A stretch of 64,000 bases of DNA, from positions 124,001 through 188,000 of the forward strand of contig JAQSCW010000002.1 in the NCBI GenBank assembly GCA_029945625.1, written 5' to 3'. This DNA comes from a bacterium (GTDB taxonomy: Bacteria > Bacteroidota > Bacteroidia > B-17B0 > Aurantibacillaceae). Below are positions 28,417-49,122 of this stretch, piece by piece (the first letter of the stretch is position 1; each line of letters starts with the position of its first letter). Below the pieces are notes generated by a model, which did not search any database, was not told the origin of the DNA, and saw only the letters and a list, made by a program, of their open reading frames with translations. Both the position numbers and the translations under genes were made by a program.

Positions 28417-31400
28417 ATGAAAAACTGCTTCAAAAGAGCTATTGTATTTTTATTGTGTTTATACTCTACTTTTTCGTTTGCCCAAAACGAGACAAAAAAA
28501 TGGTATTTCGGAAACACAGCCGGATTGGATTTTATGACTCCAACTCCCTCTGTTCTTACCAATGGTGCGATGTCTGCCTTCTATTCCTGTTCAAGCATGG
28601 CTGATGCTGCAGGGAACTTGCTTTTTTATACCGATGGTGCTACCGTATATAATTCCAGTCATGTAGTAATGGCGAATGGTACCGGTCTTTTTGGAAACGG
28701 TGGATCAAACAGTTCACAGGGGAGTATTATTATTAAAAAACCGGGCAGTACTATTTTGTATTATATTTTCACTACAGCCGGTGCATGGAATACTACAGTG
28801 GGATTTAATTATTCTATTGTTGATATGAGTCTTGCTTCCGGCCAGGGTTCAGTTACTGTAAAGAACCAAAACTTATATACCGGATACGCATCGGGAAGAT
28901 TGACGGCCACCAGGCACTGTAATGGAGTAGATGTGTGGGTTCTTACCAAGGATTGGTTTTATCAGAATACCAATTTATCGGGTACTGTGACACCAAATTA
29001 CAGGGCTTATTTATTGACTAGTACCGGAGTTAACACTACTGCTGTGATTTCCCCGGCAAGCACTATTACTTACACAAATGGGACGTGGTATGATTGGGGC
29101 TGTATGAAGATATCTCCAAACGGGCAAAAATTAGGAGTGGCAAATTATAATTACAATTGGAATATGTTGAGTTTGAATCCTATGTTCGAGCTATATGACT
29201 TTAATAACTCAAACGGCGTGGTATCAAATCAACTGACTTTGGTTACAAATAATATTTCCAACTTTTGGTGGGGGGGATGGGGTTGCGAATTTTCTCCGGA
29301 TGGTACAAAATTTTATGGATCGCGGTATTATGTGAATAGTGACCTGTTGCAATGGAACTTGTGTGCCGGAACTCCCAGTATGATTGCAGCATCACTTTAT
29401 TCCATTACTTCAACAGGTCAGGTGGGAAGTTTGCAATTGGCAGCCAACGGGAAAATTTATTGCTCTCGCTGGAACCAAACTGATCTAGGTGTTATTAATA
29501 ATCCAAATGCCTCCGGCTCTGCCTGCAATTATTCCATAACCGGCCAATCGCTTTCTCCCAAAGCATCATGGTGGAGTTTACCCAATTTTATGTCAAGTTA
29601 TTTTATTCAGCGACCCCCACCCACCCCATTTACGTATTCAGTTAATAACGCTTTTGGATGTCAGACGGCTTCATTTAACACAACATATAATCCAAGTATC
29701 ACCATTGTTGGTTGCGCTGCGAGTGGCTACTCACTTAATGCTCTGCAATGGAATTTTGGAGACCCTGGTTCAGGCTCTGCAAATTATTCATCGCTCAACA
29801 GTCCCACACACGCTTTCCCAACTCTGGGAACTTATACCGTTCAATTAGTATTGTATTATAGTTGCGGAGGCGGCACTGACACTCTTAAGCAGGTTGTGAA
29901 CATCAATCAACCATGCATAACAGTGAGTAGTACTTCCATTACCTGCGCAAACCTTGGATCGGCAACGGTAGCTGCCTTGGGTGGCACTGGTCCGTTTTCA
30001 TATACCTGGATGCCTACTGCCCAAACTAGTTCTGTAGCCACAGGTTTGAGTCCGGGTACATACACCATCACTGTTTTTGATTTTGGAAATAATTTTACTT
30101 ATACCGCCACAACTGTATTTACTTCCCTAATTCCACTCACAGGAAGTATATCCATGACCGGCAGTGTTACGTGCAATGGTGCAAGTACCGGAACGGGCAA
30201 TGTTACCAATCTTGCTGGGGGATCAGGTTCTCAATTATTTTTCTGGTACAATGGAAGCACTACACTCGCAACCGCTTACACGAATTCACTCAGTGCGGGT
30301 ATATGGAGTGTTAATGTGACGGATGCTTTAACGGGATGTCAGATTAACCAATCTTTTTTTGTCTCGCAGCCTCCGCCTTTGTCGCTGATACTTTCGGCTA
30401 ACACCCCCAGTGCCTGCGTGGGGACAACGGTGAACGTTAGTGGCAGCACTTCTGGGGGAACTCCGGGATATACGTATTCCTGGAGTACGGGGCCCACGAA
30501 TTATTCAACCAATGTTTCTCAGGCAATTCCGGGAATTTATGTGTATACATTAAGTAGCCTTGATACAAATGCCTGTTTAAAAACCAATACCATTTCAATT
30601 GACTTTATCACGAATCCGGTACTAACGGTTAGCAATGTGTCGATATGCCCTTTAAAAACGGGCACACTTTCGGTTTCGGGAGCAAGCTCCTATACCTGGA
30701 ATGCTTTAAGTTCGTTTAGTACCACGGGCACTTCTTTTACCTCTTCTCCAATACTTACCACTCAATATAATGTGCTTGGTTCAGCTCTAGGATGTACTTC
30801 CATAGCTACTGCGTCTATCATCCTACATCTTCTACCCTCACCGGCCTTTAACTCCAACAGCCCGGTTTGTAACGGCCAACAATTACAATTATATGGTGGC
30901 GGGGGTGCTACTTATTTATGGACAGGGCCACTTGGTTTTAATGCCGGCAATCAATTTCCTGTGGTGAATTTAGCTGCTCCAAATAATAGCGGTGTCTATA
31001 ACTTAACGGTTACTACCATCAACAATTGCACAGCTTCCACCACTGCTTCGTTACTGGTGAATCCTACTCCTGCGCTTTCGGCAACAGGAAGTACAGTATG
31101 CAGCAATGGGGTTTTTAGTTTGGGAGCGAACTCAATTCCGGGGGCCCTCTACTCATGGGCTGGTCCCCTGGCTTTTATTTCCCCGCTTCAAAATCCAACA
31201 TATGTCTCTCCGGCACCCAACCGATCAGGTATTTACACAGTTACTGCTACTAGTCCTGTGGGTTTCACCAACACTGCTATTGCACATGTAACGGTTACTT
31301 TATTGCCGAGCCCAACCGCCATAAACGATGGACCTAAATGCGCGGGAACATTGATCAACTTTATAGGAAACGGAGGAGATTTTTATTCCTGGGCCGGCCC

Positions 31401-33024
31401 TAATTCGTTTAGTAGTGTGCAACAAAATCCTACAATAAATTTTGTACAAACCACCGCAGGGGGAATATATACGCTTACTGTTACAAGGGGCCCTTGTGTT
31501 AATTCGACCACACAATCGCTCACGGTTTGGGCCTTGCCTGTTCCTACAGCATCTAATACAGGGGCGGCCTGCCAAACAAAGACCCTTCAGTTGTTAGCTA
31601 GTACAATAAATACCGTTACTAATTATTATTGGTTTGGTCCTTTCTTTAGCAGCACTCTAAAAAATCCGGTGCTTGATTCCTGCAAAATATCCTATTCCGG
31701 GGTTTATACCCTCACGGTATTGGATTTTCATACGTGCCAGGCTTCGGCAAACACTACAGTGACTGTTTTACAAAATCCAATTGTGACGGCAAGCGGCGCC
31801 ACAGTATGCCTTAATCAACCAGCCACACTTTCAGCAACAGGGGCTGTTACTTATTTTTGGACGGGACCAAAATATTATCAGGGCAACACGGCAAATCCGC
31901 TTATTCCTTCGGTAACAATTGATAGGAATGGAACTTATACCGTGGTGGGAACTGCTGCAAATAATTGTACGGCCACCACAAAAGTGTTGGTAGCCACCAA
32001 ACAATTACCGGTGCCCACCGTAACTGTTATTCCAAATACAAGGGTCTGCCAAAACGAGGTGGTAACATTGAATGGAGGAGGAGGACAATCGTACACCTGG
32101 TATGGACCTAACGATATAATGTATGAAGGAAGCATTGTCACCTTTACAGCCGGTACCAACTGGTATGGTGGAACTTATACCTTGATTGTATCAGATGGTA
32201 TTGGTTGCAGTAATTTTACCACCACCCCACTCTATATCGAACAATTGCCTTCGGGAAGTTTGGCTGGAATTTTGGAAGGCTGTGCACCACTTTGCAGCGA
32301 TTACCGTTTCAGTTCAAATGGTTTAGGCGGTTCATTTATTCAAAGCAGCTGGCAGATCAACAAACAAATAATTGGCAGTGAAAATTTTTACTATTGTTTT
32401 GACCGGGCGGGAACCTTTACAATTAACGGTTCTTTGTTTGATACAAAAACGGCTTGTACAAATTTGGTAGATTTCGAAGTGACTGTGCACCCAAAACCGG
32501 AAGCGGATTTTCAATATTCACCCTTGAAACCTGTTGAAAAACTGGATGAGGTTTTCTTCACAAATACATCGAGAGGAGAACAACAAAAACAATGGACTTG
32601 GTTTTTCGACAACAATAAGGGAAACAAGGAAAGAACTGAGAATACATCACATTTGTATCCTGATGCCGGCCAGTTCCCGGTAGTACTGGTGGTGAGAAAT
32701 AAATGGGGATGTACGGATACCCTGATGAAAGTTATTATTGTTGAGCCCGATTTTGCGATATATGTGCCAAATGCATTTACCCCAAATGAGGATGAGCGCA
32801 ATGAAGTATTTATGCCGGTGATTAGAAGCGCAAAAAATTACAATATAAAAATTTACGATCGATGGGGTGAGCAGATTTTTGAAAGTTCGGATTTATTAAA
32901 AGGATGGGATGGAACTTATAAAGGTGCATCGTGCAAACAGGATGTTTATAACTGGAAGATTGTTGTTTCTGCTGCCAATGGGGAACAGCGAATTCTGACG
33001 GGAAGTGTTTTGTTGATGCGGTAG
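28417..33024 (+). CDS. Giant PKD/Ig-repeat surface protein with T9SS type B sorting domain (paralogue 1)
   Basis: The 1535-residue product has a signal peptide ending SFAQN. The N-terminal ~400 residues begin KKWYFGNTAGLDF and continue with LLFYTDGATVYNS, the common Bacteroidota 'WYFG' propeller-like module. A PKD domain follows (WNFGDPGSGS...HAFPTLGTY), then SprB-type repeats (SYTWMP...GLSPGTYT) and about eight Ig-like repeats of ~80 residues. A final PKD domain precedes the type B tail YVPNAFTPNEDERNE...YDRWGEQIFE...GWDGTYKG...VLLMR. It should be a T9SS-exported adhesin. Its last 534 bp align without gaps to the 3' end of the gene at 36246-41531, and the middle SprB-like repeats are also close. 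Confidence 0.92.
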   Translation: MKNCFKRAIVFLLCLYSTFSFAQNETKKWYFGNTAGLDFMTPTPSVLTNGAMSAFYSCSSMADAAGNLLFYTDGATVYNSSHVVMANGTGLFGNGGSNSSQGSIIIKKPGSTILYYIFTTAGAWNTTVGFNYSIVDMSLASGQGSVTVKNQNLYTGYASGRLTATRHCNGVDVWVLTKDWFYQNTNLSGTVTPNYRAYLLTSTGVNTTAVISPASTITYTNGTWYDWGCMKISPNGQKLGVANYNYNWNMLSLNPMFELYDFNNSNGVVSNQLTLVTNNISNFWWGGWGCEFSPDGTKFYGSRYYVNSDLLQWNLCAGTPSMIAASLYSITSTGQVGSLQLAANGKIYCSRWNQTDLGVINNPNASGSACNYSITGQSLSPKASWWSLPNFMSSYFIQRPPPTPFTYSVNNAFGCQTASFNTTYNPSITIVGCAASGYSLNALQWNFGDPGSGSANYSSLNSPTHAFPTLGTYTVQLVLYYSCGGGTDTLKQVVNINQPCITVSSTSITCANLGSATVAALGGTGPFSYTWMPTAQTSSVATGLSPGTYTITVFDFGNNFTYTATTVFTSLIPLTGSISMTGSVTCNGASTGTGNVTNLAGGSGSQLFFWYNGSTTLATAYTNSLSAGIWSVNVTDALTGCQINQSFFVSQPPPLSLILSANTPSACVGTTVNVSGSTSGGTPGYTYSWSTGPTNYSTNVSQAIPGIYVYTLSSLDTNACLKTNTISIDFITNPVLTVSNVSICPLKTGTLSVSGASSYTWNALSSFSTTGTSFTSSPILTTQYNVLGSALGCTSIATASIILHLLPSPAFNSNSPVCNGQQLQLYGGGGATYLWTGPLGFNAGNQFPVVNLAAPNNSGVYNLTVTTINNCTASTTASLLVNPTPALSATGSTVCSNGVFSLGANSIPGALYSWAGPLAFISPLQNPTYVSPAPNRSGIYTVTATSPVGFTNTAIAHVTVTLLPSPTAINDGPKCAGTLINFIGNGGDFYSWAGPNSFSSVQQNPTINFVQTTAGGIYTLTVTRGPCVNSTTQSLTVWALPVPTASNTGAACQTKTLQLLASTINTVTNYYWFGPFFSSTLKNPVLDSCKISYSGVYTLTVLDFHTCQASANTTVTVLQNPIVTASGATVCLNQPATLSATGAVTYFWTGPKYYQGNTANPLIPSVTIDRNGTYTVVGTAANNCTATTKVLVATKQLPVPTVTVIPNTRVCQNEVVTLNGGGGQSYTWYGPNDIMYEGSIVTFTAGTNWYGGTYTLIVSDGIGCSNFTTTPLYIEQLPSGSLAGILEGCAPLCSDYRFSSNGLGGSFIQSSWQINKQIIGSENFYYCFDRAGTFTINGSLFDTKTACTNLVDFEVTVHPKPEADFQYSPLKPVEKLDEVFFTNTSRGEQQKQWTWFFDNNKGNKERTENTSHLYPDAGQFPVVLVVRNKWGCTDTLMKVIIVEPDFAIYVPNAFTPNEDERNEVFMPVIRSAKNYNIKIYDRWGEQIFESSDLLKGWDGTYKGASCKQDVYNWKIVVSAANGEQRILTGSVLLMR
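32491..33024 (+). repeat. Copy 1 of a 534-bp homologous 3' gene segment
   Basis: This segment aligns gap-free with 40998-41531. It contains a 58-nt exact match (32894-32951 with 41401-41458) and another exact stretch of about 29 nt (from 32863). Encoded proteins are nearly identical through the PKD and type B sorting domains. This points to a recent duplication or gene conversion between the two adhesin genes. Confidence 0.9.
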
Positions 33025-33241
33025 GGTACTTATCTTTTTTAACACTGAGGGCACAGAGGTTCAAACGGAGGGCACTGAGAAGAACAAAATATCTCTATGA
33101 ACCAATAAAAGATTTCCTGGTGGAGATAGCCTTCACCAAGATGAGCCTTTGGGAACCTTTGTTTTAATCAACAGTCCAACAATACAAAATGCTATTTTGA
33201 AGACTCATACCCCAAATACTAATAGCTTGCTGATACGAAAG

Positions 33242-33892
33242 TTATCCGTTTAGTAAACTTTGCCTATTCAAAAAATCTATTAGTTGTTGTCTCGACTGTG
33301 ATTTTGTTTTGGAATATATGCTGCGGATGTGAGTGCGAACCGTATTTGCGGAGATACCGAGTAACACAGCGATCTCTTTTTGCATTTTCCTCGCCGACCA
33401 GAGTTTTGAAACCTCGATTTCGCGAGTAGTGAGAGAAATGTATAATGCTTTGTGTTCTTTTTCATTAAATTGTTTGCTCTCACGCAGCGAATCCACAAAG
33501 TTTGAATTCTTCAAATTATTTTTGGGATCCGCAGAATTTAGCTTTATAATAAAGCCTTTTTCATCTGCATTCTTTTCTAAAATTATGTTCACTCCCGCTC
33601 GCATTAATTCACCAATAAATTCTAGTCCTAAATCATGATCTATAAGTACGATTTTTAGTGCAGAGTAATTTTTTCTGATAGTGAAAATAAATTCCTTATC
33701 CGCAGGCATTGATGCAGATGTACCTGCCATTACTAAACAATCAAAATCTTTTAGTTTTAAAATCTCCAACGCCTCATTTTTGTTCGAGGCTTCTGATGCT
33801 TCAAATTTGGAATGCCATTCTAAAATCCTCCTTAGGCCCCTGCGGAACAAGTTTACAGGCTCAACAATTAAGACCTTTTGTTTGGGTTTCAT
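33242..33892 (-). CDS. LuxR-type DNA-binding regulator with degenerate receiver domain
   Basis: The 216-residue protein has an N-terminal receiver-like fold (residues ~5-120) and a C-terminal LuxR/FixJ helix-turn-helix (residues ~150-210, LTTREIEVSKLW...GISANTVRTHIRSIYSKT). In normal NarL-type receivers an Asp pair sits near residue 11 and the phosphoacceptor Asp five residues after the D of 'DvvllD'. Here those positions are E11-P12 and A56 (D51-C-L-V-M-A56). Phosphorylation as usual is therefore unlikely; it may be a pseudo-receiver controlled by ligand, dimerisation or expression. It is divergent from a secreted-protein gene across a repeat-rich 320-bp region, and lies between two giant adhesin genes, which makes them candidate targets. 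Confidence 0.88.
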   Translation of the reverse strand: MKPKQKVLIVEPVNLFRRGLRRILEWHSKFEASEASNKNEALEILKLKDFDCLVMAGTSASMPADKEFIFTIRKNYSALKIVLIDHDLGLEFIGELMRAGVNIILEKNADEKGFIIKLNSADPKNNLKNSNFVDSLRESKQFNEKEHKALYISLTTREIEVSKLWSARKMQKEIAVLLGISANTVRTHIRSIYSKTKSQSRQQLIDFLNRQSLLNG

Positions 33893-34212
33893 GAATTTTC
33901 AGTATTAAATCTTAAATGATATTGAATTATACGTTGAAATTTAACATAGGTTAAATTTAAGCATGAACATGTTTATGTTTTAGACCAAAGGACGCAAAAA
34001 GCTCATGAACATGGACTTTTCACTCTTTATCTTGTTTTTCTGTTGAAATGGTCTAGCTCAAAATGGTCTAGACCATTCACTCATAATGATCTAGTCCCTT
34101 GTGTTTGCTTGGGTGAGATGATGTTATTTGGCCACAATAGCGATTTATATTTGTTGAAGTAAACATTTACAAAAAATTCAATTTTTTATTAACCTTTAAA
34201 AATCAATCAAAA
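33893..34212. promoter_or_regulatory. Divergent regulatory region with three families of repeated motifs
   Basis: This 320-bp gene-free stretch lies between the LuxR-type gene (minus) and a secreted-protein gene (plus). It holds a perfect 9-bp inverted repeat AAATTTAAC/GTTAAATTT (33937-33945, 33950-33958). It also holds two copies of CATGAACATG (33962-33971, 34004-34013) exactly 42 bp apart, the first extended to a near-palindrome by TTTATG. Third, there are three AATGRTCTAG copies (34047-34056, 34062-34071 within the 16-bp palindrome AATGGTCTAGACCATT at 34062-34077, and 34085-34094). These look like operators for one or more dimeric regulators, perhaps including the adjacent LuxR-type protein. 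No classical TAnnTTTG box stands out for the plus-strand gene. Confidence 0.6.
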
Positions 34213-36009
34213 ATGAAAACAATCAAATTCGTCTTGGCGCTATGCGCGCTCACAGTGTCATTATTTTCCCAGCCTTATGGCGTTGCAAAGTACCCACGAA
34301 CAAATTCGTGGCTGAGCTCGGGGACTGTCACAACTCAAAATCCAGGATTCCTAATGGCGGGCACCGAGCTTACCACTACCAATTTTAATTTTAGTTTAGA
34401 TAGAGTTGGGCCAGGAGGGGTGCCAGCAGGTAACGCATGGAATTTTCAAAATGGGTATACCCTTTCTGGGGGAGGCTCCGGATGTGGCGCTTCGGCAGTT
34501 ATTAATAATTGTGTGGGTGTAACAGCGATCGAGTCCTATAACCCCTCTAACCTTACAACCGTTTCCCCTAATGTGGTTGTTGGGGCGGTAGGATATTGTT
34601 GCTTCTTTGCAACTTTAGACAATGGGGGAAATGTTGTTAACACCACCTCTTATGTTTTTCCAGGCTCTACTCCAAACAGTGTCTCTAAACCACTAATTAC
34701 ACCGTCATTAAAAAATCCAAATCAATATTTCATAGTTGGTTCTTTCGATGGTAAAATGTATATGCTCAGAGTTGACAGCGTAGGAGCAATCCAACAGAAC
34801 TTTACGTGTGACTTGCCCAATTCCAGTTCCACATTTTATGTAGAACCTCGTGCAATAATAGAATCGCCTTATGGTAACAAAGAGTTAACGATAGTAGGTT
34901 GGATTTCAAATACTCCTAATGGGAATGACGGTTTCTTTTACCAAATTCCGGGCAATTTTCCTGCAGGCGGAGCTACCGTTTTTAAACGGTATGATATTAC
35001 AAAAAACCTTACAAGTTTTGACAATAACGAATTCACTTCGATAGCAGTTGAGAATAATAACGGAGGCTTTCTTATTGGTGGCGCAAGTGTGGCAGGTATC
35101 AACTCACATCAAGGCAACGCCTGGATGTTGACCTTAAGCTCCAGTGGTGCTGTTTGCGGAAGCTGTTGGAGTACCGTTATTGACGGTACGCAGGATCCAA
35201 CATCTGGTAAAATACTGGGGGTAATTGAGCGAACAAGTACTAGCTATGGGTATCATTACTTTGGGGCCTGCGCAGCGAACTCCGGGATTACCGTATATAA
35301 ATTAGATAATTTGGGGAACGCTTTTACAGCCTCTTGGCCGGGAACAAATGATGAAATCATATATAATAATAATTCAATAAATGCTACCTGGCCCACAAAT
35401 ATAACCTACCTTGATAACGGAGGAAACGCCGACATTGGTTTACACATTTACGGGAACAGAGATAATACCGGACCCGGCAATCATTATTTTGTTGAAGCTT
35501 ATTTTAACGGAGTAGCCGGATGCGAGCAACTTGGCAACATTGCTCAGGTGGATAACACTTCGCCAACCCCTAATAATGTCTCTGACAATCCAGGAGCACA
35601 AGTTACGAATTGTTCTGTTTTTTCAATTGCTGTGACAAATAATGCACCTTACACTGCCCTCTGCGGGCCAAGCAATTCGATAGGAGGAGGAAGTAATCTT
35701 AAGGGAGCTCCACTAGGAGTGAATAAAATTGCTAATGAGAAGAAGGTTTTCTCAGTGTATCCAAATCCCGTTTGTGATAGAACTGTGATACACTATCAGC
35801 CATCAAAATCCGCCACCATGGAAATAGAAATTTATGATAATTTTGGTCGTCAAGTATTTTCTAAAAGAGGAGTTGATGTTGAAAAAAATCATGATTATAA
35901 AATTGAGCTAAATTTAGAGGACATGAAATTGACAAAGGGGATCTATTTCTTAAGAATGTTTGGCGATGGTGAAATACTGCAGGAGAAAATAGTATATGAA
36001 GGAAATTAA
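34213..36009 (+). CDS. Secreted protein with T9SS type A sorting domain
   Basis: The 598-residue product has a signal peptide (MKTIKFVLALCALTVSLFSQ) and a large Gly/Asn/Ser-rich beta body of ~470 residues with no enzyme motif I recognise. It contains scattered cysteines (for example GSGCGASAVINNC, GYCC, CGSCW) that could form disulfides after export. The last ~80 residues begin VYPNPVCDRTVIHY and continue IEIYDNFGRQVFSKRG and KGIYFLRMFGDGE, a clear type A T9SS signal. It is probably surface-anchored or released. The 5' region is the repeat-dense regulatory stretch shared with the LuxR-type regulator, suggesting tight control. The A-rich leader ends ATCAATCAAAAATG. Confidence 0.85.
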   Translation: MKTIKFVLALCALTVSLFSQPYGVAKYPRTNSWLSSGTVTTQNPGFLMAGTELTTTNFNFSLDRVGPGGVPAGNAWNFQNGYTLSGGGSGCGASAVINNCVGVTAIESYNPSNLTTVSPNVVVGAVGYCCFFATLDNGGNVVNTTSYVFPGSTPNSVSKPLITPSLKNPNQYFIVGSFDGKMYMLRVDSVGAIQQNFTCDLPNSSSTFYVEPRAIIESPYGNKELTIVGWISNTPNGNDGFFYQIPGNFPAGGATVFKRYDITKNLTSFDNNEFTSIAVENNNGGFLIGGASVAGINSHQGNAWMLTLSSSGAVCGSCWSTVIDGTQDPTSGKILGVIERTSTSYGYHYFGACAANSGITVYKLDNLGNAFTASWPGTNDEIIYNNNSINATWPTNITYLDNGGNADIGLHIYGNRDNTGPGNHYFVEAYFNGVAGCEQLGNIAQVDNTSPTPNNVSDNPGAQVTNCSVFSIAVTNNAPYTALCGPSNSIGGGSNLKGAPLGVNKIANEKKVFSVYPNPVCDRTVIHYQPSKSATMEIEIYDNFGRQVFSKRGVDVEKNHDYKIELNLEDMKLTKGIYFLRMFGDGEILQEKIVYEGN

Positions 36010-36245: not shown

Positions 36246-39200
36246 TTGAAAAGGAAAATAAAATATCATTTTGTTTATTTCCTCATTTTAGTGAGTTGCG
36301 TTTGTTTTGGGCAAACCACTGCTCAGATTAATCCATCAGATAATTCAGCAACCGGCAATAAATCTTCATTTGTTTCTCAGGGTGATATATTTGGCACCCG
36401 TGTTTTCATAGAAAATAAGGGGCAGTTTAATGACAAACTCCCCGGGGGAGAAAAAGTACTTTTTGTTTATGATTATGGGGGAGAGAAAATATATTTCACC
36501 AATGAGGGTCTGGTGCATGAATTTGTGAGGCAATTCTCTTCAACTGAACAACAGACCGGTTCGAAAGAACGAAGTGAACAAACAAATGTAAATCCTGCAA
36601 AAACCTCGTTCGTAAAAATGAATTGGATCAATTCAAGGCAAACGACAGAGGTGGAGGGAAGGGAAAAACAAAATCATTATATTACTTATGGAAGTGCGGA
36701 CCTGAATTCAAGAACATTCAAAAAAATACTTTACAAAAATGTGTACAATGATATAGACATCGAATATGAGATACCTGAAAATAAAGCCTATGGGGTTAAA
36801 TATTCTATTATTCTGCACCCCGGATCTAAGGCAGAGGATATAAAAATTGCTTATAGCGGGGATGTCACTCAAATTAAGCTGGATAAAGCAGGAAACCTTG
36901 AGGTTCATTCCTCCGCGGATAAAATAATGGAACACGCCCCTTCCAGCTTTTACCGGGGTGGAGATAGTCTGCCTTCCGGTTTCGTGTTAAATGAGAATTT
37001 TGTTTCATTTTTGCTGCCCAAAAATTATAAGAATGACAAGACAGTGATCATTGATCCCTGGGTGACTGCCATTTCAACTTTCTCTGTATATCTCACTAAT
37101 TCAAATGGTGGTTATGACATTGACCATGATAATTTTGGTAATACATATGTTTATGGAGCAACCGGACAATTTAAAGTTGCAAAATATAATTTATCCGGTA
37201 TACTGCAGTGGACCTTTTCCGGGATTGTTGCATCACCGTTTTGGGATTCCGGGATAGGTCCTCCATCCGGCATCCTCGTCAATAAGCTTACCTCACAAAT
37301 TTATGTGGCACATAAGCTTTGGGGACAAAAAGTAATGAGACTTGATGGGAATGGGAATTACGACAATTTTATTAGTACAGCAATCAGTAATCCCGGTGTA
37401 GGCATTCCTTGGTGGGCACAATCCGTAAGTTCAGATATGGATTTTACGTGTACAGGCGACATTGCAATATTTGGGTCCAGTGATGCTGCAGGTCAGATGA
37501 TAAGTACAACAACCGGCTCAACTTATATTTCTACATATTTTCAACTATTTCCTCAGTCAGCATCAGTGGTAGGGAATGCAAGGGATGAACTTGGAAATTT
37601 TTTTGTTTACTTTTGGCAATGGGGCTCTCTACTTAATGTAGGTTATTATAATTATGTGGCCTCAGTCGCGCCTTCGTTCACTACTTTGACTTGGAATCAA
37701 CCAAGCACATTTTCAGTGTTCAATGGAAATAATGGGGTGTCATTTCCAGTGGGACCAATAAGTCAGGCGTGGTTCAAGTGCCTGGCGGTTAATATGAGTT
37801 ATCTATATTACTATGACGGTTATAATGTGGCCGCTTTTAGTAAAAGTACCGGGTCAATAGTTGCCAGCACTACGGTGCCTCTGAATGCGAGGGAACAAGG
37901 AGGAATTGCCGTTGATGGATGTAATAATGTTTATGTGGGGGGAGTAGGATCGGTTTTGTGTTTTAATTTTAATGGTACCAGTTTTAGTACCTTAACGCCA
38001 ATTCCGCTTAATGCCGGCACTACATACCAAAATGTTTATGACTTGCAATTGGACAGGATTACAAAAACCTTGTACGTAACAGGCTCCGGTTTTGTTGGAA
38101 CTTATTCGGCCATTAATAGCTTAAGCTGCAACATTGCAAACCAATGCGCCTGCGTGCAGCCCATTGTGTCTGTAAATACTAACTCAACTAATTGTGCCAA
38201 TGTGGGAACATCTACCATTAGCATTATTGGAGTTCCCGGCCCTTATACCTATTCGTGGACGCCCGGAGGAGTAACAGGTTCGGTGGTAGGTGGAGTGAAC
38301 CCCGGCACCTATACTGTTTCTGTGACCAGTACATCCTGTAATGTCACTGCAAGTGCTATTACTATTTATACTGCGGCTTTGCCCCCCTACTCATTAACTG
38401 TAAATAGCACATCTATTACATGTGCTAATCTTGGATCTGCAAGTGTGAGCATCAATGGGATCCCGGGTCCCTTCTCTTATACCTGGATGCCCAGCGCGCA
38501 GACCAATTCAATTGCCAGTGGCTTGAGTCCGGGAATTTATACCCTGAATGTTTTTAGCCCAGGATGCAATACAACTTTTTCAACCACTACTATTTTTACT
38601 TCGCTCATTCCCCTTACCGGAAATGTGGCGAATAGTACTAGCGTTCTATGCAACGGGGCAAGTACCGGCACAGGAGTGGTGACAAATCTTTCCGGCGGTT
38701 CCGGCAATCAGAGTTATATTTGGACAAATGGCACTTCTACTAGCACAGTGCCCAACCCTACGAATTTAAGCGCCGGCATTTGGAGCGTGAATGTGACGGA
38801 CGCATTAACGGGTTGCCAGATCAATCAAAGTTTTTTTATTTCTCAGCCACCACTATTGGTGCTAAACCTTTCTTCTAACACTCCAACAACATGTGCGGGT
38901 ATGAATATTGCTATTAGCGGCACAAATTCAGGTGGTACAGGAGGGTATACTTATACCTGGACAGCAGGGCCTGCCTTAAATACGCAAACCGTTTCGCAAG
39001 GTATTGCAGGAATTTACATTTACACTCTCAATAGTACAGATGCTAATAATTGTTTAACGAGTAATACCATTGCAATCGGATTTATTCAAAACCCGGTTTT
39101 AAGTGTGAGCGATGTGAGTATTTGTCCGCTAACTGTTGGTACCTTGACGGTGAGCGGGGCAAGTAGCTATACCTGGAATGCTGCGATTAGCCTCAGCGTG

Positions 39201-41531
39201 CAGGGGATCTCGTTTACAGCATCTCCGGTGGGCAGTCAGCAGTATACAGTGGCAGGAACAGCGCTGGGATGCACAGCGGCTGTCACAGCAAGCATTATTT
39301 TGCATCCTTTACCAATACCATTTCTCACAAGCAACAGCCCTCGTTGCAATGGTGATATTTTACAATTAAACGCAGGAGGCGGTGTTTCTTTTTTGTGGAC
39401 GGGTCCGCTTGGATTTAGTTCAAGCACACAGAACAGTTTTGTAAATCCTGCTTCTCCTTCAAACAGCGGGGTTTATAATCTCACCGTCACTTCGGTAAAT
39501 GCTTGCACGGCCTCAACTTCTGCTTCTCTTATTGTAAATCCTACTCCTACTCTTTCTGCCTTGGGAAGCACGGTATGTACCACGCAATCGATGACTTTAA
39601 ATGGTTTTGCAGATCCGGGTTCCTCGTATTTTTGGTCAGGACCCATTGGATATTCTTCTAATCAACAAAATCCTGTTTTGCAAAATCCTTCCTTAACAAG
39701 GTCAGGAGTTTATCTTTTAAAAGTAAGCAGTGCTGTAGGATGCACCAATGTGGCCACTGCCACTGTAAGTGTTATCCCACCACCTTCTCTTACAGTTGCA
39801 TTGAGTAGTCCTTCACTGTGTTATCAGGCTTTTAATGGTTCGCCCAATTCAATTACATTAACTTCAGGTGGAGCTAATACCTATACCTTGTTTACTCCCA
39901 ATTTAATAGGTTCTTCACAAATGGGTGGGGGCACAGCATCCCTTGTGAGTGTGCCTCCACCGGGCACTTCTATTACCATTGGCACCGCAACTTTAATGGG
40001 CTCGAATGGAGTTTGCGCTTCTTCTGCAACCAGTACCTTTGCAGTGATCCCAAACCCAACGGTAGGAATTAATTCTTATACCCCCGTAATTTGCGCGGGT
40101 CAGAGTTTTACTTATACCAGCTTTGGCGCTCAGAGTTATACCTGGAGTCAAACAACACCCGGACTTACAACCTATACCACTTACATGACGGTGGCCAATC
40201 CAACAGTAACTAGTATTTACTCTGTGTATGGGGGAAGTATTGGCTGTAATAGTCCAACTCAAACCACTACCATAACGGTTTACCCCTTGCCAACTTTAAC
40301 TTTGAGTCCAATTAATCCGAAAATTTGTTTAAACGATAAAATTACCTTGAGTGCAAACGGAACCGGGACTTCTTATTCGTGGCTTCCTGTTATTGCAATA
40401 AGTAATTCTGCGGGGACCAGTGTGGTTGCAAACCCTTTAAGCGCTATGAATTATTCAGTGATTGCAAGCGCCAACAATTGTACAACAATGGCTAAAATTA
40501 CTGTTTCGGTTTTGCCCTTGCCAATTCCAACCATAACGGCTTTAAGTCAGAGTATCTGTCTAAATGAAATAATCAATCTGGAAGGATTTGGAGGGGTGTA
40601 CTATAATTGGAAAGGTCCGGGAGAAATAACATTTGAAGGAAAAACTGTGAACCTTTTAGCAAGTAATTTAGTTTACGGAGGCATTTATACTTTAACGGTG
40701 CAGGACATTAATACTTGCAGGAATAGTACAAGCATTCCAATTACGGTAAATAATTTACCAAATGGAGCATTGCTGGGATTAAAAGAAAACGGATGTGTAC
40801 CGCTTTGTTCGAATTATGAATTTAGTCCGAACGGATCAACTCAAATCAGCAGCAGCTGGGAGATCAACAAGCAAATAATATCAGGAAGTAAATTTTCATA
40901 TTGTTTTAATCAAGCCGGCACCTTTACCATCACCGGCAGACTTTATGATCCACAAAGCACTTGCAAAAATAACATTGATTTTTATGTGACTGTAAAACCA
41001 AAACCTGAGGCTGATTTTCAGTATTCGCCACTCAAACCAATTGAAAATCTTGATGAGGTGATTTTTACAAATACCTCAAAAGGCGAAAAACAAATTCAGT
41101 GGAATTGGTACTTCAATGACAACAGAGGTTACAAATCAAAAACTGAAAATACATCCTACCTGTATGCAAATGCTGGCGAATACCCTGTGGCATTCATTGT
41201 AAGAAACACGTGGGGTTGCATGGATACAGTGATGAAAACCATCGTTGTGGAGCCTGACTTTGCAATTTATGTGCCGAATGCGTTTACACCAAACGAAGAC
41301 GATCGCAATGAAGTATTTATGCCCGTGATTCGAAACGCCAAAAATTACAATATTAAAATTTATGATCGCTGGGGTGAGCAGATTTTTGAAAGTTCGGACC
41401 TATTAAAAGGATGGGATGGAACTTATAAAGGTGCATCGTGCAAACAGGATGTTTATAATTGGAAGATTGTGGTTTCTGCAACCACGGGAGAACAGAGGGT
41501 GATGACCGGGAATGTGATGTTGATGCGGTAG
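36246..41531 (+). CDS. Giant DUF7948/Ig-repeat surface protein with T9SS type B sorting domain (paralogue 2)
   Basis: The 1761-residue product starts at TTG (TTG AAA AGG), giving a signal peptide ending CFGQ. The N-terminal region around residues 55-275 begins FIENKGQFNDKLPGG and has the DUF7948 layout usual in front of SBBP-type propellers; a propeller-like segment continues to about 630. SprB-like repeats follow, two starting TNC/TC-AN-G (SYTWMP, GLSPGIYT), then about nine Ig-like repeats, a PKD domain (WNWYFNDNRGY) and the type B tail YVPNAFTPNEDDRNE...DRWGEQIFE...GWDGTYKG. It should be an exported adhesin. The C-terminal third is closely related to paralogue 1 while the N-terminal modules are unrelated: shared anchor, different head. 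Confidence 0.92.
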   Translation: MKRKIKYHFVYFLILVSCVCFGQTTAQINPSDNSATGNKSSFVSQGDIFGTRVFIENKGQFNDKLPGGEKVLFVYDYGGEKIYFTNEGLVHEFVRQFSSTEQQTGSKERSEQTNVNPAKTSFVKMNWINSRQTTEVEGREKQNHYITYGSADLNSRTFKKILYKNVYNDIDIEYEIPENKAYGVKYSIILHPGSKAEDIKIAYSGDVTQIKLDKAGNLEVHSSADKIMEHAPSSFYRGGDSLPSGFVLNENFVSFLLPKNYKNDKTVIIDPWVTAISTFSVYLTNSNGGYDIDHDNFGNTYVYGATGQFKVAKYNLSGILQWTFSGIVASPFWDSGIGPPSGILVNKLTSQIYVAHKLWGQKVMRLDGNGNYDNFISTAISNPGVGIPWWAQSVSSDMDFTCTGDIAIFGSSDAAGQMISTTTGSTYISTYFQLFPQSASVVGNARDELGNFFVYFWQWGSLLNVGYYNYVASVAPSFTTLTWNQPSTFSVFNGNNGVSFPVGPISQAWFKCLAVNMSYLYYYDGYNVAAFSKSTGSIVASTTVPLNAREQGGIAVDGCNNVYVGGVGSVLCFNFNGTSFSTLTPIPLNAGTTYQNVYDLQLDRITKTLYVTGSGFVGTYSAINSLSCNIANQCACVQPIVSVNTNSTNCANVGTSTISIIGVPGPYTYSWTPGGVTGSVVGGVNPGTYTVSVTSTSCNVTASAITIYTAALPPYSLTVNSTSITCANLGSASVSINGIPGPFSYTWMPSAQTNSIASGLSPGIYTLNVFSPGCNTTFSTTTIFTSLIPLTGNVANSTSVLCNGASTGTGVVTNLSGGSGNQSYIWTNGTSTSTVPNPTNLSAGIWSVNVTDALTGCQINQSFFISQPPLLVLNLSSNTPTTCAGMNIAISGTNSGGTGGYTYTWTAGPALNTQTVSQGIAGIYIYTLNSTDANNCLTSNTIAIGFIQNPVLSVSDVSICPLTVGTLTVSGASSYTWNAAISLSVQGISFTASPVGSQQYTVAGTALGCTAAVTASIILHPLPIPFLTSNSPRCNGDILQLNAGGGVSFLWTGPLGFSSSTQNSFVNPASPSNSGVYNLTVTSVNACTASTSASLIVNPTPTLSALGSTVCTTQSMTLNGFADPGSSYFWSGPIGYSSNQQNPVLQNPSLTRSGVYLLKVSSAVGCTNVATATVSVIPPPSLTVALSSPSLCYQAFNGSPNSITLTSGGANTYTLFTPNLIGSSQMGGGTASLVSVPPPGTSITIGTATLMGSNGVCASSATSTFAVIPNPTVGINSYTPVICAGQSFTYTSFGAQSYTWSQTTPGLTTYTTYMTVANPTVTSIYSVYGGSIGCNSPTQTTTITVYPLPTLTLSPINPKICLNDKITLSANGTGTSYSWLPVIAISNSAGTSVVANPLSAMNYSVIASANNCTTMAKITVSVLPLPIPTITALSQSICLNEIINLEGFGGVYYNWKGPGEITFEGKTVNLLASNLVYGGIYTLTVQDINTCRNSTSIPITVNNLPNGALLGLKENGCVPLCSNYEFSPNGSTQISSSWEINKQIISGSKFSYCFNQAGTFTITGRLYDPQSTCKNNIDFYVTVKPKPEADFQYSPLKPIENLDEVIFTNTSKGEKQIQWNWYFNDNRGYKSKTENTSYLYANAGEYPVAFIVRNTWGCMDTVMKTIVVEPDFAIYVPNAFTPNEDDRNEVFMPVIRNAKNYNIKIYDRWGEQIFESSDLLKGWDGTYKGASCKQDVYNWKIVVSATTGEQRVMTGNVMLMR
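40998..41531 (+). repeat. Copy 2 of a 534-bp homologous 3' gene segment
   Basis: This segment is the gap-free counterpart of 32491-33024, with the 58-nt exact match at 41401-41458. Similarity continues past the stop codon into the intergenic bases (GCGGTAGG-TACT then TTTTTAACAC). Confidence 0.9.
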
Positions 41532-41972
41532 GATACTGCTATTTTTAACACAAAGGGCACGGAGAAGAGCGAAGAATTATGAGAATTAGTGTGGAGGGGT
41601 AATGAAAATAATTAAACTTTAATTGTGCATGCACGGATTGGCTGGCACACAGGCGAAGGCACAAATCCGCGCAATCGGGTGCGGTAGGGTAAGCTTATTT
41701 TACCACAAAGGACACAAAGGATTACACAGAGGTCACAAAGTAGGACATACCCCCCTCTGTGTCCTTTTTGTCGGCAGGCAGACAGATGGGCAGGTCTAAC
41801 TTTGTGTCCTTTGTGCCCGTCCGAACGGCATAAAATGATTTTTGTTCTGGCCGGGCGGGTTTTCTGCCTCTACGACCCTGCCCGACCTATTGAATACATT
41901 TGGTAGTTCAGGCGGGCGCAAAGGTCGCAAGAGGAAATCGCAAAAGTTGCAAAGAAAAAAATCCACATCAAA
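41532..41972. repeat. Gene-free spacer with CACAAAGGACACAAAG-type inverted repeats
   Basis: No credible gene is present in these 441 bp. The clearest structure is a 16-bp perfect inverted repeat, CACAAAGGACACAAAG at 41704-41719 and CTTTGTGTCCTTTGTG at 41800-41815. A second arm pair, ACACAGAGG (41724-41732) and CCTCTGTGT (41754-41762), nests inside it. A partial copy of the same family, AACACAAAGGGCAC, lies just after the adhesin stop (from about 41548), and a related copy follows the other adhesin (about 33041-33075). GC-rich pieces such as GGCAGGCAGACAGATGGGCAG and CGGGCGGG-type runs are also present, and a weaker hairpin lies near 41630-41675. This looks like accumulated intergenic repeat elements. 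Confidence 0.7.
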
Positions 41973-46899: not shown

Positions 46900-46927
46900 A
46901 ATCCCGGTAGAAAAAACTACCGGGATT
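46900..46927 (-). terminator. Rho-independent terminator after the second M43 protease gene
   Basis: AATCCCGGTAG (46900-46910) pairs perfectly with CTACCGGGATT (46917-46927), 11 bp with a 6-nt loop. On the minus strand it continues in a long T run. It lies 20 bp past the stop of the minus-strand protease and in front of comEC. Confidence 0.92.
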
Positions 46928-46947: not shown

Positions 46948-49122
46948 TTATTGTACGATTAACTTGCCCGACATGGTTGCGCCGTTCACAGAAAGATTCA
47001 CAAAATAGATCCCTTTTTGCAACTCGTTGTGCTGATTAAAGCTGATAGTTTGTTCACCGACAGGATATGTTTGATCAGTTACATCTAAAACTTCTTTTCC
47101 AAGTATATCCAGTACGCTGATTTTCACAGCCGAGGCATTACTTAAATTAAAGTGTACGTTGGCACCCGAAGCAGTGGGATTAGGATACATACTAAACGAA
47201 ATACTTTTTGTTAATTCGTTTACACCAAGTAAATTGTAATAATTCACTGCGTCTACAAAAATATTATTTCCATAACCTGCGCTACCTTCCACAAAGTTTA
47301 AGCGAACAAGAACGCTGCTGGAGTTAAGGTAACTGCTCCAGTTAGGGTGTGATGAAATTGTATACACTTTCCATTCACCCGGATTTGGGAAAAATTGACC
47401 TGAACCCATTCCGCCACTACCGTTAGCCATTGTGGCCGCCGACAAATTGTAAATGTCCTGCCAGCTGCCTCCGCAATCTCTTGATCCCTGAATCTTCAAT
47501 TGATCATTTTGTGTGGTGGTTTGTTGTCTGAATGCATATGCAAATTCAAATACATTGCCTGCATTATTCTTTACATCCATCATTGGCATGATCAATTGAT
47601 CTGACCCATTTGCCGGCAACACACTGCCATCAATAAAGTAGCAATAATTTTGATCGTAAGCAACCTGACCGGTTTGTTGCCAGGTGTAGCCATCATTGTT
47701 TGCGTCAAAAATGGACCAATAAGGTGGTAATCCTTGATTTTCGAAACTCTCAAAAGCCGGACCTGTAATAGCTGCAGAACCATCCAGTACATATACGGTG
47801 CGAATTTTTGAGCTTGAACCTTGCGAATTTGAAACGGTAAGTGTAACGTTTGTGGTTCCAACAATTGGAAAGTTAATGGCAGTTTGGGCACCGGAAGAGG
47901 AGGTAATACTAGCCATATTATCGGCTGCCCACTGGTAGGTAGTAACGGTGCCATTGGATGAAATATCTTTCATGGTGAGGTTTCCGCCGGCACAAACGGT
48001 ATATGAGCCTGAAACGGACAAGAACTCGGCAATTGGAGCGCAGGTTAAATTTGTACCAACTCCTGTAAACACCATATTGGCCGGCTGCCACAAATTTTGG
48101 CGACCTGCCACTGTTGATGAAAGCAGGGTTCTCATGGCATTAGTTTGGCCGGAGGTGAAGTTTCGGGCACAATTTGAATAATCCATGATGTTCTGCACAT
48201 TCTGGTAATAGTCGGCGGGGTTCCCCGGGTTTGGCGAAGAACAAACGTAATTGGTATTTGTGGAGGAAGGAGGACAGGTTGAGAAATTACCTTTGGTAAC
48301 CGGCGTATCGGAAATTCCGTCGTCACCGCACACAAAACCGGGATTATTGGTATTTCCAAAAGTATGTGGAAGACTCAACCAGTGACCAATCTCATGAGAA
48401 AGAGACCTTGAATCGGGACCCGGAAAACTCACCCCAATGTAACTGTACACATAAATGATCACATCCTTCGCGCTGCCTGTAAAATTTTGGCCCGGGAGGT
48501 TGGTATAACCTTGAATTGTAATGTTTGTTGACGGAGTACCATTCGCGGTGATGAGAGAGACAAGATACACATTCAGGTATTTAGTGGGATCCCAGGTATA
48601 GGTATGGTAAGAAGGTTGTTGAGCGGCGGTTTGGTTCCAGTTAAGCCCTTTTGGATCCAAATGTTTCACAATGCCATTTGTGCAATTTCCCTGCGGATCT
48701 TTTTTTGCCAACATAAATTTTATATCGGAGGGGATGTACAGATTTTTAAATGGCGTAAAGATGGATGCGGTGTCCTGACTTTGTCGGGCATAATCCTTAT
48801 TAATTTGGTCTACTGCTGCAATAACAGATGCCTCAGAAATATTCTCAGGTCCGCCCATATGAAGCACGTGAAATACAATGGGCACAGTGTATACTACAGC
48901 AGAAGGTTTTGCTCCCGCGTTTGCAACTTCGGCAGCCAGGCGCTCTTGTTTTAAATAATCTTGTGTTTTTTCAAAATTTTTACGAGCTTCGGGATGAGCC
49001 GTAAAATACTGTTCCATCGCTTCATCGGTGTAGCAGCGAATAACTTTTTTTTCCTGTGAGAACAGGGCAACAGAAGTGAAAATTGCGAGAACAAGGGTGA
49101 TCGTTGATACGTGTTTTTTCAT
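46948..49122 (-). CDS. Secreted M43 metalloprotease with T9SS type A tail
   Basis: The 724-residue precursor has a signal peptide (MKKHVSTITLVLAIFTSVALF, then SQ). The zinc motif HEIGHWLSLPH is at 243-253 and the Met-turn region is NIMDYSNC. An Ig/PKD-like domain (about 360-445) and a jelly-roll-like MAM/carbohydrate-type segment (about 455-640) follow. The last ~80 residues, from SMYPNPTASGANVHF to KGIYFVNLSVNG, form a type A sorting domain. It is a pappalysin-like protease exported by T9SS. It starts only 3 bp after the SPFH gene stop, so the two are probably co-transcribed, an unusual combination. The catalytic half is similar in layout to the M43 protease at 25046-27325. Confidence 0.92.
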   Translation of the reverse strand: MKKHVSTITLVLAIFTSVALFSQEKKVIRCYTDEAMEQYFTAHPEARKNFEKTQDYLKQERLAAEVANAGAKPSAVVYTVPIVFHVLHMGGPENISEASVIAAVDQINKDYARQSQDTASIFTPFKNLYIPSDIKFMLAKKDPQGNCTNGIVKHLDPKGLNWNQTAAQQPSYHTYTWDPTKYLNVYLVSLITANGTPSTNITIQGYTNLPGQNFTGSAKDVIIYVYSYIGVSFPGPDSRSLSHEIGHWLSLPHTFGNTNNPGFVCGDDGISDTPVTKGNFSTCPPSSTNTNYVCSSPNPGNPADYYQNVQNIMDYSNCARNFTSGQTNAMRTLLSSTVAGRQNLWQPANMVFTGVGTNLTCAPIAEFLSVSGSYTVCAGGNLTMKDISSNGTVTTYQWAADNMASITSSSGAQTAINFPIVGTTNVTLTVSNSQGSSSKIRTVYVLDGSAAITGPAFESFENQGLPPYWSIFDANNDGYTWQQTGQVAYDQNYCYFIDGSVLPANGSDQLIMPMMDVKNNAGNVFEFAYAFRQQTTTQNDQLKIQGSRDCGGSWQDIYNLSAATMANGSGGMGSGQFFPNPGEWKVYTISSHPNWSSYLNSSSVLVRLNFVEGSAGYGNNIFVDAVNYYNLLGVNELTKSISFSMYPNPTASGANVHFNLSNASAVKISVLDILGKEVLDVTDQTYPVGEQTISFNQHNELQKGIYFVNLSVNGATMSGKLIVQ

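Follow-up and report, generated by a model that had tools for sequence, protein, structure and literature searches.

The window analysed here, a 64,000-nucleotide stretch of genomic DNA, contains a 320-bp spacer (33893-34212) that separates a regulator gene from a divergent gene for a T9SS cargo protein. The cargo gene (34213-36009, forward strand) codes for a 598-aa protein of type A, whose C-terminal sorting domain is recognised both by Por_Secre_tail (40.3 bits, cut-off 27) and by TIGR04183 (41.9, cut-off 23). The preliminary description of this DNA had placed a regulator gene back to back with that of a secreted protein. This arrangement is supported, and the spacer between the two genes is rich in palindromes. 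An all-beta, propeller-like body is predicted for the cargo protein, in a model of moderate quality (pLDDT 67.6), and its propeller-type structural matches have low TM-scores; these predicted matches imply no function.

Genes for two T9SS type B cargo proteins are found on the same strand as the type A cargo gene. In several species, relatives of the first one (28417-33024; 1535 aa) are neighbours of homologues of the type A cargo gene. The second one (36246-41531; 1761 aa) is located downstream of the 34213 gene, and a relative of it follows the cargo homologue in genome G017 and also, as a fragment at a contig end, in genome G004. Just downstream of the window, the same genome carries a second relative of the 34213 cargo gene (L081:6787-8701, i.e. 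~190.8-192.7 kb of G000:C2), oriented divergently to a gene related to that at 28417. This second relative comprises two overlapping reading frames, of 329 and 324 aa, and is probably a broken copy. The spacer that follows the 36246 gene (41532-41972) contains repeats of a different kind, namely repeated ACAAAGG/CACAAAG units with inverted copies. A terminator-like inverted repeat with 11-bp arms and a 6-bp loop is present between two genes at 46900-46927.

The regulator gene (33242-33892, reverse strand) codes for a protein of 216 aa. Pfam identifies an N-terminal receiver domain (Response_reg, PF00072; 35.1 bits, cut-off 30.2), which is degenerate, and a C-terminal GerE (LuxR/NarL-type) helix-turn-helix domain (PF00196; 49 bits, cut-off 23.5). 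The protein had been described as LuxR-type; it does have a GerE domain, but it is better called a response regulator of the NarL/FixJ type whose receiver is degenerate. Among the NCBIfam profiles, NarP gave the best match to it, MctR and NarL came next, and all three scores are far below the equivalog cut-offs (58.3 vs 343 bits for NarP and 42.3 vs 250 bits for NarL). In an alignment with 23 relatives, the phospho-accepting Asp, which is conserved in all of them, is replaced by Ala (A56), the Thr or Ser residue present in 22 relatives is replaced by Asp (D85), and the second acidic residue, an Asp in 16 relatives, is replaced by Pro (P12). E11 and K107 are retained. Because the phospho-accepting Asp and other catalytic residues have been lost, this regulator is not a canonical, phosphorylation-controlled member of the NarL/FixJ subfamily. 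Pseudo-receivers, or atypical response regulators, are defined by the loss of at least one of the five conserved receiver residues, and those in which the Asp is absent are called aspartate-less receivers, according to the available text of PMC12632262. This definition makes the predicted protein a pseudo-receiver, and the loss of its Asp places it among the aspartate-less receivers.

No kinase domain was detected among the 14 proteins encoded between 18494 and 50064, the regulator included (Pfam, E ≤ 0.001). The regulator is thus an orphan, with no sensor kinase adjacent to it among the proteins scanned. Across 60 related genomes, the match with the best score shows 28% identity (G021), or 31% outside the genus (G047). 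A contig scan with six short peptides, which is sensitive to close relatives only, found no such relatives. The single-sequence structure model of the regulator was useless (pLDDT 39.8).

All the motifs of the preliminary description were located in the spacer at the coordinates that it gave, and the set covers 158 bp, in agreement with the ~160-bp cluster that had been announced. The inverted repeat of 9+9 bp, AAATTTAAC-ATAG-GTTAAATTT, is indeed perfect. It covers 22 bp (33937-33958, with 4 bp between the arms), and a distance of 45 bp separates its left end from the regulator start codon at 33892. Its core, TTTAACA-TA-GGTTAAA, fits a 7-2-7 arrangement, with six of seven pairs. It is followed by a near-palindrome of the same 7-2-7 geometry, CATGAAC-AT-GTTTATG (33962-33977; 6/7 pairs), to which the first copy of CATGAACATG (33962) belongs. 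The second CATGAACATG copy (34004-34013, forward strand) starts 42 bp after the start of the first. AATGRTCTAG occurs three times, with starts at 34047, 34062 and 34085, and the middle copy is part of a perfect 16-bp palindrome, AATGGTC-TA-GACCATT (AATGGTCTAGACCATT; 34062-34077; 7-2-7 with 7/7 pairs), as reported. This palindrome has two near-copies in the spacer, AATGGTCTAGCTCAAA (34047-34062; 12/16 matches) and AATGATCTAGTCCCTT (34085-34100; 13/16 matches); a 12/16 match to it is also reached at five further places in the 64-kb window.

The part of chance in this pattern was assessed with dinucleotide-preserving shuffles of the 320-bp spacer (n=1000 for the five P values given first). All these statistics are post hoc, because the dense look of the region was the reason for which it was picked. 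A perfect 16-bp palindrome has a P value of 0.02, a 9+9 inverted repeat with at most 6 bp between its arms has a P value of 0.023, and the two of them together have a P value of 0.003. For a three-member family of 10-mers with at most one mismatch, and for any exact pair of 10-mers, the values are 0.17 and 0.147, respectively. In a larger set of 4000 shuffles, a perfect 16-bp palindrome arose in 59, accompanied in a single one of them by one extra copy with at least 12 of 16 matches within 40 bp, and in none by two such near-copies. The spacer contains six inverted heptamers of the 7-2-7 type with at least six of seven pairs, vs a mean of 1.2 in the shuffles (P 0.004); a single A/T run holds two overlapping members of this set, and another two share bases with each other.

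The spacer was also ranked in a set of 57 spacers with a minimum length of 150 bp, obtained with mechanical gene calls from the window and from 220 kb of the same genome (11 sampled 20-kb stretches). None of the other 56 has more than one perfect palindrome, whereas this spacer has three, one of which is an A/T run. Families of at least three 10-mers are present in 12 of the 57 spacers, and exact 10-mer pairs in 14 of them. When the counts are summed, one longer spacer (L129:3300-3944) outranks that of the regulator gene, and a sliding repeat count over the window yielded three higher-scoring places (starts of the 320-bp intervals: 41461-41701, 47381-47481 and 35861-35881). Hence, the claim of a motif density far above that of any other spacer holds for palindromes but not for repeats. 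Similarly, the 42-bp spacing of the CATGAACATG pair is present as claimed, but its phasing over four helical turns had to be rejected as evidence, given how often exact pairs arise in shuffles and in other spacers. It follows from these comparisons that the palindromes and the AATGGTC cluster merit attention and that the 42-bp pair does not.

The motifs had been proposed to cluster upstream of T9SS cargo genes. In the whole genome, the 22-bp palindrome pattern has a single occurrence, and the 16-bp palindrome is found at a single place even with up to two mismatches. AATGRTCTAG gives 12 strand-hits (four of them in the spacer) vs 16 for the reversed control. Outside the spacer, six of its eight hits fall within mechanically called genes; by eye, one of the two intergenic sites is beside a glycosyltransferase-like gene, and the other is between two genes in which no T9SS features are obvious. 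For CATGAACATG, the 13 strand-hits (two in the spacer) exceed the 5 of its control, and eight of the 11 hits located elsewhere are within mechanically called genes. A relaxed form of the palindrome, AATGGTCNNGACCATT with at most two mismatches, occurs at 27 places vs 18 for the reversed control. We therefore rejected the idea of a T9SS-cargo regulon or operator family, because the full palindromes are unique, the other half-sites are mostly intragenic and none of them precedes the 10 homologous cargo genes described below. The suggestion that several cooperating or competing regulators act on this spacer was not supported either. The single genomic occurrence of the full palindromes is what is expected for a local regulator.

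The family of the 34213 cargo is uncommon, with members in six of 395 genomes of the class (E ≤ 1e-40) and in 19 of 87 genomes of the family (E ≤ 1e-60). Its closest homologues are those of G017 and G004 (both 46% identical) and of G022 (41%). We inspected what lies upstream of 33 genes of this family, including that of the window, with mechanical gene calls at the comparison loci; the gene of G062:C144, which starts at a contig end, was left out. A receiver protein is encoded directly upstream of six of the 33 cargo genes, the window included, and for four of the 33, in three genomes, the directly upstream gene codes for a response regulator with a detected DNA-binding domain. In the window, this protein is divergent and has a GerE domain. 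The G004 regulator also has a GerE domain and is preceded by a histidine kinase; this genome has only two GerE-domain genes, one of which adjoins the cargo homologue. In G027, two copies of a LytTR regulator are found upstream of two cargo copies, with a histidine kinase seen at one of them. The regulator copies are 96% identical over 169 residues, the contig of the second one starting inside the gene, and the cargo copies are 76% identical to each other. The G009 regulator has a receiver domain and is preceded by a histidine kinase, and Pfam detected no DNA-binding domain in it, even at E values up to 5.

Directly upstream of the cargo homologues of G004 and G009 is a three-gene unit (L068:5794-7878 and L076:3050-5165) coding for a membrane-like protein of 212-224 aa with no Pfam match, a kinase and a response regulator. 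In G021, the cargo homologue has as its divergent neighbour a single-domain receiver in which no DNA-binding domain was found (L140:3396-3806). Upstream of the cargo homologue of G022:C162, the contig ends in what appears by eye to be the ATPase part of a histidine kinase (L078:3785-4183).

In the six genomes that were checked, the number of receiver domains ranges from 10 to 46, or by our estimate approximately one per hundred genes. Because receiver domains are so sparse, response regulators are found beside cargo homologues more often than expected. Two of the three closest cargo homologues (those of G017 and G022) have no adjacent response regulator, and seven of the 33 adjoin an ATP synthase beta gene (by eye) and form an orthologous group without such a regulator. 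The regulator of the window is 25% identical to that of G004 and 16% identical to that of G009, and the three proteins have different positions in a quick tree computed without support values. As they are not orthologous, this is at most a recurrent arrangement and not one conserved system.

The comparison with related species revealed no conserved motif. Both 10-mers (with at most one mismatch) and the palindromes are absent upstream of 10 cargo homologues, and 6-7-base pieces of the motifs (TAGACC, GAACATG and TTTAAC) are present in six of these 10 regions. Sites that are missing where the regulator is also missing are not strong evidence against a function, yet the best available support is gone. 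A palindrome with P<0.05 was found within positions -260 to -61 of three of five homologues linked to a response regulator, vs none of 14 unlinked ones (19 of the 33 genes in total), in a contrast that was seen first and then tested on partly the same loci, with two of the five linked genes being copies in one genome and two of the 14 unlinked rows (G060:C19 and G030) having a wrongly set start. The palindromes that precede linked homologues do not share a sequence, and outside the window they are rich in A+T. That palindromes may accompany linked response regulators is thus a lead only. A broader scenario, which we regard as speculative and rather unlikely, is that this cargo family repeatedly gains its own dedicated regulator. 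The cases would be the GerE kinase-regulator pair of G004, the LytTR pair of G027, the pair with an unrecognised output of G009 and the kinase-less regulator with a dead receiver in the window. Palindrome-rich spacers would then be cargo-specific switches superimposed on general T9SS control, and the version found in the window would have been converted to phosphate-independent, dose-driven autoregulation.

We also searched the spacer for promoter elements. A candidate promoter of the regulator gene, TTAACC-N17-TATAAT (33926-33954, reverse strand), has its first hexamer inside the 22-bp palindrome; matches of this type are no better than in shuffles, with five in the scanned region vs a mean of 4.2. 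On the cargo side, TATATTTG (34146-34153, forward strand) is the only exact match found in the spacer to TAnnTTTG, the consensus of the flavobacterial -7 box (PMC9723704). No TTG corresponding to a -33 box is present 17-23 nt upstream of it. The TATATTTG box sits 46-99 bp downstream of the AATGGTC cluster, a distance open to activation, though the -33 box is missing.

Several known systems offer points of comparison. The PorX/PorY two-component system controls the T9SS and is thus, like the present locus, a case of response-regulator control tied to this secretion system. PorX is part of the control of the system as a whole, whereas the regulator of the window is local, beside one cargo gene. 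With NarL and NarP of Escherichia coli, the regulator shares the order of the receiver and GerE domains, NarP being its best NCBIfam profile, and the spacer shares 16-bp inverted heptamers with a 2-bp spacing, more than one per promoter region. The differences are that the heptamers of the spacer are unlike the NarL consensus, TACYYMT, that the regulator scores far below the cut-offs and has lost its phosphorylation residues, and that none of the 14 proteins scanned in this region has a kinase domain. Sites of the 7-2-7 type are a known form for NarL dimers, and NarL sometimes uses single 7-base elements as well (PMC7419079). BldM, an atypical NarL/FixJ response regulator, binds a 16-bp palindrome, TCACcCg-nn-cGgGTGA, as a homodimer. 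BldM and WhiI of Streptomyces belong to the NarL/FixJ subfamily, have no adjacent kinase and are thought to be free of phosphorylation control, as described in the available text of PMC4125116. They are global developmental regulators with many targets, unlike the situation in the window, where the full palindromes occur once in the genome and a partner protein is not known.

The 7-2-7 geometry, the parallel with BldM, the spacing to the -7 box and the promoter overlap lead us to favour a local, autoregulated switch. Thus, the spacer could well be, although we hold this view tentatively, the region through which an atypical response regulator with a single target region governs both its own gene and its cargo neighbour. 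The dense symmetric sites are most simply read as the regulator's own putative landing sites. A dimer of the regulator would bind the 16-bp 7-2-7 palindromes. The perfect site (34062-34077), together with the two weaker sites that flank it, would control the T9SS cargo gene, more likely by activation, and the palindrome at 33937-33958 would limit the expression of the regulator itself, as its overlap with the candidate regulator promoter would suit autorepression. To judge from these sequence features, the regulator would activate one side and repress the other. With a receiver that would have lost the usual route of phosphorylation, the protein would depend for its activity on how much of it is present, on a partner or on a ligand, and not on phosphate.

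Other readings of the spacer were considered. The sites might be genuine operators used by one or several unlinked transcription factors, in which case the divergent regulator would act at other loci or be inactive. That one spacer holds three different palindromes is compatible with this possibility, as is a regulator that has lost its phosphorylation residues, might be decaying and has no close relative in the related genomes or in the contig scan. However, the GerE domain scores well above its cut-off, and a factor with many targets should not have its full palindromes nowhere else in the genome and their relaxed form near the control level, which makes this reading unlikely. We also consider it improbable that the pattern mostly arose by chance in an A+T-rich spacer, was picked by eye from a 64-kb window and has no regulatory meaning. 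The frequent 10-mer pairs and families of other spacers, P values of approximately 0.02 for the single palindromes in a region selected for its dense look and the lack of motif conservation before the 10 homologues are what such an origin predicts. In contrast, it accounts poorly for the joint P value of the two palindromes, for a perfect palindrome flanked by two near-copies, which no shuffle reproduced, and for a spacer that is alone among the 57 in having at least two perfect palindromes.

The inverted repeats might also work in RNA or in recombination, as a leader hairpin, a terminator or an invertible promoter, rather than as operators. Part of the spacer is indeed flanked by inverted repeats, such as 33975-33987 with 34064-34076 (13 nt, 85% complementary). 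Nevertheless, an Rfam search of 33000-34400 gave no match up to E = 1, no terminator-like site was found in the same interval, the 16-bp palindrome has no loop and known invertible promoters have longer flanking repeats than those present here; such a role is hence very improbable.

The locus is thus a plausible but ordinary local regulator, an ordinary type of bacterial switch in an uncommon form, and its novelty is modest. In the open-access literature searched, as far as its available text goes, we found no report of a T9SS cargo gene with a local response regulator next to it. Response regulators with pseudo-receivers are common, and their mode of switching is unknown according to the available text of PMC12632262. 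If the local switch favoured here is real, a single target marked by palindromes next to the regulator's own gene would provide a compact system for studying how pseudo-receivers switch, and the locus would illustrate the local control of an individual T9SS cargo.
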